From Halobacteriales archaeon YIM A00013 (lineage in GTDB: Archaea > Halobacteriota > Halobacteria > Halobacteriales > Haloarculaceae), in the NCBI GenBank assembly GCA_025041195.1, contig JAKCFM010000001.1:1798001-1862000 (forward strand): a stretch of DNA of 64,000 nt, in the 5' to 3' direction. A program made the translations under genes and the position numbers. Positions 19,859 through 23,750 of this stretch are shown piece after piece; within the stretch, counting starts at the first letter, position 1, and each line of letters opens with the position of its first letter. The notes under the pieces were generated by a model, which was not told where the DNA came from, made no database searches, and saw only the letters and a list, made by a program, of their open reading frames with translations.

Positions 19859-20566
19859 GTGGGGGTTGAAATTCGAGAGGATCCCGTCACCGACGATGAG
19901 TTCGAAGAAATGAAACAATTCGTTCATGATTACCTCGCAGCGAGCGTAGAGAGCGAGGACGATGGTGGGCGGATGCGGTGGTATCCATGGCACTCGGCGC
20001 AGTACCGGTATAACCACATTCTGAACGTGGTCACTGTCGCAACGCGGATTGCCGAGCGCGAAGGAGCCAACGTGGACGTGGTTCGAGTTGCATCGCTGTT
20101 TCACGACATCGCAAAGCTAGAAGTTGATCAGGATGTGCACGCAGAGGCCGGTGCGCGGATCACCCGGGAGTATCTGGGGAGTCACTGCGACTATCCGGCG
20201 TCGTTCGTCGATGAGGTCTGTAGCGCGATCGAGGCCCACTCCTATCAGGGGCCGCTGTCCGATCTCGGGCTTGAGGCGCGCTGCTTGATCGAGAGCGACC
20301 TTCTCGATAAGGTTGGCGCAAACGGGATGACGCTCATTCTGTTGCGGATGGGCTATGAAGCGCGTGGACACACGGATGCGCCCGAAATGATCGATCGGAT
20401 CGTCGAGCGAGGGCAGAACGTCTTGGATCGGATCGAAAGCGAAACTGCCGAGTCGATCGCTCATCAGCGACTCAAGCGGGTGCGCTGGTTCCGTGAGTGG
20501 CTTCTCGAAGAGGTTGCAGTGCTTGACGACGACTCCGAATCGGCGATCGACGAACTCGCGAACTAG
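19859..20566 (+). CDS. HD-domain phosphohydrolase
   Basis: A 235-residue HD superfamily protein starting at a GTG. The metal-binding residues appear in HSAQYRYNHILNV near residue 43-55 (first His), ASLFHDIAKL near 82 (His-Asp), and HAEAG plus IEAHSY further on, the order of the YfbR/RNase-Y-like HD fold. Such proteins hydrolyse nucleotides or cyclic nucleotides, but the substrate is not deducible. Convergent with the LysE-type exporter, with the two stop codons overlapping by 4 bp. The 217-bp upstream spacer contains two TGTAACA copies within 30 bp that could be regulatory. Confidence 0.82.
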   Translation: MGVEIREDPVTDDEFEEMKQFVHDYLAASVESEDDGGRMRWYPWHSAQYRYNHILNVVTVATRIAEREGANVDVVRVASLFHDIAKLEVDQDVHAEAGARITREYLGSHCDYPASFVDEVCSAIEAHSYQGPLSDLGLEARCLIESDLLDKVGANGMTLILLRMGYEARGHTDAPEMIDRIVERGQNVLDRIESETAESIAHQRLKRVRWFREWLLEEVAVLDDDSESAIDELAN

Positions 20567-21231
20567 CCGAACAGAATGCCGATGGCGTCGGTGAGAAAGT
20601 AGACGCCAAAGCCGGCGAGGACGAGCGCGCTCACGGCTGCTGTCAGTGGTACCATCGAGTCGATGCGATTTTTCGCGGCGATCAGCGTTGCCGGAAAGCC
20701 AACGACCCAGAGTGCAACCCCTGCAAACAGGCCGACGAGCAACAGCGGCGTGCCGGTATGAACGACGAACAGGCCGGAAAGCGACGCCGACAGTGGTTCA
20801 AGCACGTCAACAGTGCCGGGATTGAGCAGGGCAACGCCGGCGGTGAGCCAGAAGAGAATCTGGTATGGGTTGGTGATGGCGAGTGCAAACGCCCGGCGAA
20901 AGCCACGCCCGCTGTCGGCGCTCGTCTCGTCCGTGAATCCATCCTGGAACTCTTTGGCGGTGTCGTAGGCAAAATACAGCATCAACAGTCCACCGACACC
21001 GACCATCACGCCTCGGAGGAGTGCGAACCGCTCAACGATTGCCACCACGCCCAACAGGGCGCCCACGAAAAAGCAGATGTCGGCCACCATCGCTCCCAGG
21101 CCGGCACGCACACCAGAGAGCCAGCCGTGTGTGACGCTCTCATCGGCGATTACCGCGTTCATCGGGCCGGGTGGTGCTGCGAGTGCGATCCCGAACACCA
21201 CGCCCGCGACGAACGTCACTGGATCCGTCAT
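20563..21231 (-). CDS. LysE/RhtB-family amino acid exporter
   Basis: A 222-residue membrane protein with six hydrophobic segments and the LysE signature AAPPGPMNAVIADES near residue 18-32, typical of exporters for lysine, threonine, homoserine or related metabolites. The conserved NPYQILFWLTAG is near 118. Substrate unknown. It lies upstream of no obvious operon partner and is convergent with the HD gene. The gene behind it on the same strand encodes another small membrane protein, 45 bp away. Confidence 0.88.
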   Translation of the reverse strand: MTDPVTFVAGVVFGIALAAPPGPMNAVIADESVTHGWLSGVRAGLGAMVADICFFVGALLGVVAIVERFALLRGVMVGVGGLLMLYFAYDTAKEFQDGFTDETSADSGRGFRRAFALAITNPYQILFWLTAGVALLNPGTVDVLEPLSASLSGLFVVHTGTPLLLVGLFAGVALWVVGFPATLIAAKNRIDSMVPLTAAVSALVLAGFGVYFLTDAIGILFG

Positions 21232-21276: not shown

Positions 21277-21672
21277 TCACAGTCCGATACGCCGATAGCG
21301 ACGGGAGCAATATCCCAGAGAAACGATCCACACCACGGGAATGGGAAGGACGAACGCAGCCACCACACTCAGCAGCCCCGCACCCGTCCATCGCCACTGA
21401 TTGGGAGTCCACGGCGCGTCCGTTCGACTGAGCGCGCGCGTATCGAGCCACAGCGAGACGATGAAAACGAGTCCCACCACCAGCAAGACGAGTGGTGCGA
21501 AGACAGTTCCAGAGATCAATGCAATCGCTGCTGGGCCATCTGTCGCGATGAGTCCAGACGTAAACAGCGCGGACTGGAGTCCGAACAGCCCGACGACAAG
21601 CAGACGTGGGAGTTCCACGATCGGAACCAGCACGCCAATCCACCACCATCCGTGTGTGTTGTCCACAGCCAT
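21277..21672 (-). CDS. Four-helix membrane protein of unknown function
   Basis: A 131-residue protein with four hydrophobic segments (about 10-30, 38-58, 60-80 and 95-118), starting MAVDNTHGWWW and ending with a basic tail CSRRYRRIGL, which suggests the C-terminus is cytosolic. No family motif recognised. It sits between the LysE exporter and the threonine-synthase-like gene on the same strand with short gaps (45 and 44 bp), so the three may be transcribed together; whether it assists amino acid export is speculation. Confidence 0.7.
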   Translation of the reverse strand: MAVDNTHGWWWIGVLVPIVELPRLLVVGLFGLQSALFTSGLIATDGPAAIALISGTVFAPLVLLVVGLVFIVSLWLDTRALSRTDAPWTPNQWRWTGAGLLSVVAAFVLPIPVVWIVSLGYCSRRYRRIGL

Positions 21673-21716: not shown

Positions 21717-22871
21717 TCAGATGCCCTGTCCCATCAGATGGCTCCGAAGGAGATCCGCATCCGGCGCTCCGGAGGCCGGATTGATGAGGACAATACTATC
21801 ATCGGAGCCAAACGCTTCGCGGAGTTCCCAGGCCATCGCCGCCGCCGCACCGCCAGCAACACTGATATCAATTCCCTCGTGGCTGGCTATTGTTACCGCC
21901 GATTCGAGGATATCATCGTCGTTGACGGCCACTGCGCGGCCGTTGTGCTCTCTGAGCGTCTCCAGGATGAGTTCGCTTCCCGCTGGTGCCGGCCGTTCGA
22001 GCGCGCCGGCCACCGTATCGGGAACGTCCCATGGTGAAACCGTGGTCGCTCCGTCCTCAAACGCCGTAACGAGCGGCGCACAGCTTTCGGATTGGCCGGC
22101 ATACAACGACGGAACGGAATCGACGAGACCGAGCGCTGCAAGCTCTCGCGCGCCTTTTGCCATTCCATACAGCGGCGCGCTCCCAACAAACGGATAGCAG
22201 ACGACGTCGGGAGCCGTCCAGTCGAGCTGTTGGAATAGTTCGAACGCAACCCCTTTCGCTCCCTCGTGGCGAAACGGCGTCTCGAACGCACTCAGGGAGT
22301 ACAACTCGGACGACTCGGTTTCGAACGTCGCCTTCGCGTCATCGAATCTGCCACCAACGACGTTCATATCACCCCCATGAACGTTGATCATCGCTTTGTG
22401 CTGAAACGGCGTCCTGGAGGGCACGTAGGCGTGCGTGGTGAGCCCTGCACGCGCACCGAAGGCGGCCGCCGACTGGCCACCCGCACCGGTGCTCGCCAGT
22501 CCAACGTCGGTCGCGCCGTGCTGGCGGGCAGCCGAAATGGCCAGGGCGATCCCGCGATCCGTGATCGAACCGGTGGGATTCGCCCCTTCGTCTTTGATGT
22601 AGACCGATCCAACGCCGAGTTCGTCGGCCAATCGCGGGCAATCAACCAGCGGTGTCGGCCCCCCAGCAAACTGAACGCGCTCGCTCGCAGGGATGGGCAT
22701 CAACACATCGAACGCGTCGCTCGCGGACGCCTGGTCTTGTGAGAGCTCGATGGAGTCGAGCGCATACGCTGGATCGAGGATCCCACCGTCTGGATGGCGT
22801 TCGACCGTCGGCGCGAACTCCTCACCCGAGAAAGGATCGCGAAAGCCCGTAAACGCGGCTGTCGTCTGCAT
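21717..22871 (-). CDS. Threonine-synthase-like protein lacking the PLP lysine
   Basis: A 384-residue fold-type II PLP-enzyme homologue, closest in layout to threonine synthase: VQFAGGPTPLVDCPRLA near 66, YIKDEGANPTGSITDRG near 91-107, and the glycine-rich ASTGAGGQSAAA near 125. In true threonine synthases the motif is NPTGSFKDRG, where Lys binds PLP; here that position is Thr104 (codon ACG on the minus strand). The phosphate-binding loop is kept and the frame is intact with normal codon use, so this is not a decayed gene. It may be a regulatory or scaffolding pseudoenzyme, or use another residue. The LysE exporter nearby hints at amino acid metabolism. Another threonine synthase presumably exists elsewhere. 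Confidence 0.82.
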   Translation of the reverse strand: MQTTAAFTGFRDPFSGEEFAPTVERHPDGGILDPAYALDSIELSQDQASASDAFDVLMPIPASERVQFAGGPTPLVDCPRLADELGVGSVYIKDEGANPTGSITDRGIALAISAARQHGATDVGLASTGAGGQSAAAFGARAGLTTHAYVPSRTPFQHKAMINVHGGDMNVVGGRFDDAKATFETESSELYSLSAFETPFRHEGAKGVAFELFQQLDWTAPDVVCYPFVGSAPLYGMAKGARELAALGLVDSVPSLYAGQSESCAPLVTAFEDGATTVSPWDVPDTVAGALERPAPAGSELILETLREHNGRAVAVNDDDILESAVTIASHEGIDISVAGGAAAAMAWELREAFGSDDSIVLINPASGAPDADLLRSHLMGQGI

Positions 22872-22916: not shown

Positions 22917-23750
22917 TTATCCGATGTAGCGGAGATCGTCCTCGGTCGGTGCCTGCGACTGCTCCATCTCCCTGATCTTCGAGACGACTTCTTCCATCTC
23001 TTCGGCGCGTTCTTCGAGTGCATCGTAGCCCACCTCGAACGCACAGAGCGATTCGAGGACTTCGAGCACGGCGCGGGCGCTCTTGGGATCAACGAGATAG
23101 CCGCTGGTCTCACCCATCAGACAGGCCGCGTTGAAACCACGGCGCTCGCCAAGCCCGAGCAACAGCCCACTAACGCCAACAATTCCGCCGGCGGGTTCGT
23201 TGTCACGGAACTCCACGACATCGTCGAGTTCGTCAATGAGCGCGTCCGAACTCGCCGCACCAATAACGCTGTACTCTTCGATGAGCTCGCCCGTCGGCAC
23301 GCCACCCAGCGTGTACGCCCGCTCGACGCCGAACGATTCGGCCACATCGAGGATGGCGCTGGTGAGCTGATAGTGGCCACGAGGATCCTGCGCCTGGTGG
23401 TCGCCGGTTAGCACGATCAGATCGTTTGGAACGGACTGCTCGGCCGGCGTCGTTGAGCCGTTGGTTGCAACGTCGTCATCACTCGATTCGTCGTCCTCGG
23501 ACGACGTAGCAGCCGTCGTCAGATCGACGTAATGAAACTCCAGACAGGCGAGCTGTGTCGTGCCGTCCTCGATCGTCACCTGTGGTGGAAAATGCTCGGA
23601 GTAGAGGCGTCGCAACAGCGTGGTTTCGAACTCTTCAAGAAGATGCTCGGCCGCCAACTTCCCGACGTGACCGACGCCCGGGAGCCCCTCGATCAGAATT
23701 GGATCGCGAAGCGACGGATCTGCGACCGTCTCAATATCGAACTCGTCCAT
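22917..23750 (-). CDS. PAC2-family proteasome assembly chaperone
   Basis: A 277-residue PAC2/PbaB-type protein, the archaeal family related to proteasome assembly chaperones. It begins MDEFDIETV and contains PILIEGLPGVGHVGKLAAEH near 17-36, the characteristic first loop. An acidic, serine-rich insert of about 30 residues (near 83-110) is likely a flexible loop and is typical of haloarchaeal adaptation. It is the last gene of the run L44e, S27e, aIF2-alpha, Nop10, PAC2, an order kept in many archaea, 5 bp after nop10. Role in 20S assembly follows from the family and is not shown here. Confidence 0.9.
   Translation of the reverse strand: MDEFDIETVADPSLRDPILIEGLPGVGHVGKLAAEHLLEEFETTLLRRLYSEHFPPQVTIEDGTTQLACLEFHYVDLTTAATSSEDDESSDDDVATNGSTTPAEQSVPNDLIVLTGDHQAQDPRGHYQLTSAILDVAESFGVERAYTLGGVPTGELIEEYSVIGAASSDALIDELDDVVEFRDNEPAGGIVGVSGLLLGLGERRGFNAACLMGETSGYLVDPKSARAVLEVLESLCAFEVGYDALEERAEEMEEVVSKIREMEQSQAPTEDDLRYIG

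Follow-up and report, generated by a model that had tools for sequence, protein, structure and literature searches.

Does a threonine-synthase-like gene that lacks the codon for the Schiff-base lysine encode a decaying product, an enzyme of unusual chemistry, or a protein kept for something other than catalysis? This question is raised by a locus of the Halobacteriales archaeon YIM A00013, in a 64,000-nucleotide stretch of its DNA that was analyzed as a whole (hereafter the window). Pseudoenzymes are usually viewed as the single dead copy of a duplicated gene. The original prediction for the locus was that its intact frame may encode a pseudoenzyme, or else an enzyme working without an internal aldimine. 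No description of the family was found in the openly accessible literature (subscription papers lay outside the search). In Haloferax, an insertion in thrC3 is rescued by Gly, Ser, and Thr together (PMC4300041), and thrC3 is not equated here with the window family.

The gene and its protein

The gene (21717-22871, minus strand) encodes a Lys-less, threonine-synthase-like protein of 384 aa (PALP, fold type II), a probable pseudoenzyme. The former Schiff-base motif NPTGSITDRG (residues 98-107; 22551-22580, minus strand) reads aat ccc acc ggt tcg atc acg gat cgc ggg from 22580 to 22551. The predicted replacement of the lysine by Thr at residue 104 was confirmed: the codon at the place of the PLP-lysine (22560-22562, read from 22562 to 22560 on the minus strand) is ACG, where the examined Lys forms have AAG. 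The same ACG codon is present in CP071306.1 (Actinarchaeum halophilum YIM 93972), a separate assembly whose protein is 92% identical to the window protein, and a sequencing error or strain mutation was therefore discarded as the source of Thr104. Near-identical relatives with a lysine were looked for and none were found, the lysine being present in orthologues at ~50% identity. As to whether the threonine is conserved, within the genus it is shared with the closest relative only (T104): residue 104 is Ala or Leu in the remaining four distinct members, and 11 different replacements occur among the Lys-less forms overall (A, T, R, L, V, F, H, S, G, Q, and E).

By sequence and fold, the protein qualifies as a member of the PALP/fold-type-II group over its catalytic domain. 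Pfam PALP (PF00291) matches it at 1.7e-57, its AlphaFold2 model (mean pLDDT 96) has a threonine-synthase fold, the matches of this model among PDB structures are to ThrC (E 1e-24), and its nearest solved relatives by both measures are threonine synthases (e.g., 2d1f, 6cgq, 1uim, 2zsj). It shares with ThrC, its best match in sequence and structure, the fold and the general layout, but the Schiff-base Lys, the O3' Asn, and the GNAGN-type phosphate loop are absent from it. Its scores fall below the cut-offs of the threonine-synthase equivalog NF006050 (249 vs. 303) and of TIGR00260 (124 vs. 167). The window protein belongs by descent to a haloarchaeal family of ThrC paralogues. The Lys-bearing members of this family (NPTG[ST]FKDRG and PTGGGVGLVG, above the PRK08197/NF006050 cut-off) are orthologues of the window gene by tree and neighbourhood; they are ~45-55% identical to its product and keep all of the PLP residues that the window member has lost. 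Two Lys-less relatives, L081:1501-2688 and L034:1501-2685, exceed the curated 'threonine synthase' cut-off of NF006050 (350 and 324 vs. 303), so that automatic annotation will call them enzymes, an error that the family exposes.

Damage to the cofactor pocket

The original prediction had the PLP-phosphate loop intact, which proved wrong. The loop is degraded to FVGSAPLYG (residues 228-236; 22164-22190, minus strand), where Lys forms have TGGGVGLVG (PFVGSAPLYG vs. PTGGGVGLVG with the preceding residue); Gly230 is kept, while 228, 229, 231, 232, and 233 are changed. This removes the support for a PLP site that is normal apart from its lysine. In addition, the segment STGAGGQ (residues 127-133; 22473-22493, minus strand; SAGNAGQ in Lys forms) has Ala130 in place of the Asn expected at the PLP O3', and residue 365, a conserved Thr in Lys-bearing relatives, is Pro. 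The roles given to these residues, as contacts of O3', of the phosphate, and of the ring, are those of their counterparts in ThrC structures, assigned by alignment. The protein thus lacks what marks a PLP enzyme of fold type II, namely the internal-aldimine Lys (Thr104), the Gly-rich phosphate loop (FVGSAP), and the O3' Asn (Ala130). Further towards the N-terminus, only a remnant is left of the CxxC...CPxC ribbon (residues 12-30; 22782-22838, minus strand), whose cysteines were lost in the window lineage (C12D, C15S, and C26H); the ribbon is kept in the Lys forms and in most Lys-less forms, and several of its cysteines are absent also from other members of the genus and from g11.

The 153 sites that are near-invariant in Lys forms were compared across four well-separated losses, in which 14 (f5), 20 (f12), 10 (f7), and 28 (g4) of them were changed. 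Sites 103, 104, 128, 205, 230, and 297, which belong to the inferred cofactor pocket, were altered in all four. Pairwise overlaps of the changed sites were above chance, with most p-values between 1e-3 and 1e-11 and two weak pairs involving g4 (p = 0.009 and 0.08), values that serve as a guide and not as a formal test because the Lys state was known when the sites were picked. Lys-bearing controls showed 0-4 changes at the same sites; the window lineage showed 46 of 153, including 103, 104, 128, 205, and 297. No new conserved lysine was found in the Lys-less forms by the site comparison, and a migrated catalytic lysine was rejected on this ground.

Partial cases also exist. Three relatives (L122:2800-3987, L012:1501-2673, and L013:1501-2670) retain Lys104 (TSKDRG, TVKDRG) together with most of the other pocket changes, and may be either intermediates or chance regains; since they keep the lysine and lose other pocket residues, loss of the PLP site is not all-or-none. 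L156 (G087, genus g43), lying within a genus of Lys forms, has Arg for Lys (NPTGTFRDRG) and keeps Phe103 and Lys205, which looks like a recent, partial inactivation. Given that pocket residues change along with the lysine and that partial cases occur, the loss of the lysine is better seen as a stage in the loss of the cofactor site than as an isolated mutation.

Distribution and repeated loss of the lysine

A family gene was found, usually as one copy, in 289 of the 293 sampled genomes of the order (search with an E-value limit of 1e-55). Among 140 distinct sequences, a sample and not a census, 72 have Lys at residue 104 and 68 have another residue; 32 genera contained Lys forms only, 34 Lys-less forms only, and eight contained both. 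Of 59 relatives, 57 encode a canonical ThrC (FKD motif) alongside, among them all 41 whose quality is good, hence threonine synthesis has no obvious need of the window-type gene. A further Lys-bearing group of ThrC-like haloarchaeal proteins (L064, L065, and L067) carries NPTNTFKDRG, and possibly related genes are located on haloarchaeal plasmids (hits H1-H6).

In a tree of 117 sequences built with the motif columns removed, parsimony required seven changes of Lys state, or five if L012, L013, and L122 were grouped with the dead forms; a second tree, with further columns removed, rows added, and the longest branches excluded, again gave seven. Counts obtained after collapsing weak branches to hard polytomies were higher and, not being lower bounds, were set aside. 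Forcing a single Lys-less clade (with L012, L013, and L122) cost 200 log-likelihood units (AU test p = 6e-6). Sisters of opposite Lys state occur within genera, i.e., L080/L081 (g25), L029/L034 (g4), and L151/L156 (g43). Scans along the sequences for blocks copied from another Lys-less lineage revealed none, and gene conversion of active-site blocks was rejected for want of supporting windows. By these trees, the lysine was lost separately at least five times. The root of the gene tree was unstable in both trees, and the direction of change therefore rests on the outgroups and on the implausibility of regain: as all examined outgroup paralogues have the lysine and regain of a whole PLP site is implausible, we infer that the Lys form is ancestral.

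Selection

For pairs 85-99% identical, median dN/dS was 0.138 in Lys-less forms (36 pairs) and 0.139 in Lys forms (69 pairs), i.e., no difference, with the within-genus pairs not being mutually independent; the window gene compared with L006 gave 0.138. Values for distant pairs were set aside because synonymous sites were near saturation. Over longer times the Lys-less proteins are more variable, with a mean site entropy of 1.47 bits vs. 0.71 bits in Lys forms, and owing to this higher overall variation a part of their change is attributed to relaxed constraint. The claim of an intact frame was borne out, the gene was found to be under purifying selection, and the pseudoenzyme reading gains support from both and from the widespread occurrence of Lys-less relatives.

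Gene neighbourhood

The gene follows S27e, eIF2alpha, Nop10, and PAC2 on one strand, an order from which no function was read since most relatives do not share it. The PAC2-family gene (22917-23750, minus strand) lies upstream in the same orientation, with 45 bases in between, and has the same position in the other members of the genus. Downstream, also on the same strand, a LysE-type translocator gene (20563-21231, minus strand) is located, and such a gene follows Lys and Lys-less relatives alike. The 131-aa ORF between the Lys-less gene and the LysE-type gene (21277-21672, minus strand) has no Pfam match, looks membrane-bound, and was found to adjoin the Lys-less gene in no more than the two closest genomes. 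Neighbourhoods match between Lys and Lys-less forms in f5 (FAD oxidase-gene-LysE-HD), f12 (PAC2-gene-DtxR-UPF0016), and f7 (Zn hydrolase-gene-SIR2), where neighbours outside the window were named by reading their sequences and not by family search. The LysE, HD, PAC2, FAD oxidase, and DtxR neighbours gave no clear pathway clue, as all occur with both types.

Discussion

We consider it probable that the window gene encodes a pseudoenzyme that cannot form the PLP internal aldimine, very probably does not bind PLP, and, after one of several conversions from a Lys-bearing ancestor, has been maintained by purifying selection through a role other than catalysis. In the sense of an enzyme homologue that lacks essential catalytic residues and is retained by selection, the term fits. 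Conversion of the Lys form took place at least five times, in different lineages of haloarchaea and without the gene leaving its place on the chromosome, and each time a similar set of cofactor-site residues, so placed by alignment to ThrC, was altered together with the lysine. A second, binding or regulatory function may already have been present in the ancestral protein, so that the non-catalytic role would predate the loss of the lysine and, where catalysis was dispensable, would alone have retained the gene. This role would most likely lie in amino-acid metabolism, where the protein would act as partner or regulator by sensing a small molecule or contacting another enzyme; it is favoured by analogy with the TSB-like/TSA pair and with dead DHS subunits, and the adjoining LysE-type translocator, present with both forms, points weakly the same way.

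A specific form of this explanation is conceivable though rather unlikely. In it, a live PLP enzyme, for instance canonical ThrC (L002) or a different fold-type-II paralogue, would be activated or regulated by the dead protein through mixed oligomers. A live ThrC is nearly always present, the fold is intact in the model, and precedents exist in a TSB-like pseudoenzyme that activates TSA in eudicots (PMC12727527) and a catalytically dead DHS subunit that activates live DHS (PMC3663545). However, identity to canonical ThrC is just ~35%, the genes are unlinked, and a Lys-bearing family copy to pair with is absent from most genomes. Chemistry without an internal aldimine, with PLP or PMP held non-covalently or with another cofactor, was offered by the original prediction and has become improbable: the NPTG..DR frame and the pocket neighbours K93, K159, R201, and mostly K206 are conserved, yet every expected anchor of PLP (at O3', phosphate, and ring) is degraded, residue 104 is free to vary among many unrelated residues, and a substitute lysine is missing from the Lys-less forms.

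Descent of all Lys-less genes from one ancient Lys-less paralogue, through transfer and differential loss, would suit the several families spanned by the largest Lys-less group and the co-occurrence of both types in f4 and g11 genomes. It was rejected on the AU test and on synteny and is very improbable, as sisters of opposite state occur within genera, neighbourhoods are shared between the two types, and mosaic blocks were not seen. That the gene is simply decaying, or that the Thr is an error or a strain mutation, is scarcely credible: Lys-less sequences do diverge faster overall, but frames are intact everywhere, close-pair dN/dS (0.14) equals that of the Lys forms, and the identical codon recurs in an independent relative.

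We lean slightly to a wider claim, in which a near-universal haloarchaeal PLP enzyme became cofactor-free in at least five parallel events, its pocket being remodelled in the same coordinated way each time. If true, this would bring to light an old and conserved non-catalytic function common to live and dead forms. In this family, mostly single-copy orthologues differ repeatedly, and even inside genera, in whether they are live or dead, with the gene kept and the same pocket residues changing, and a hidden function of the ThrC-like protein thereby becomes testable by exchanging orthologues of the two types within a single host.

A known parallel is the TSB-like protein, which like the window protein is a fold-type-II paralogue without catalysis and is retained for a non-catalytic, allosteric role (PMC12727527). 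Its key changes (E190A and D386E) followed a gene duplication, whereas in the window family the lysine and PLP pocket were lost repeatedly and mostly no live family copy is left in the genome. The fungal Dis3L2 orthologues that gave rise to Ssd1 pseudonucleases lost their active site at least four times, and an older second function has been proposed to explain it (PMC8097288), just as we propose for the window family; they belong to an unrelated nuclease family, and their second function, RNA binding, is known.
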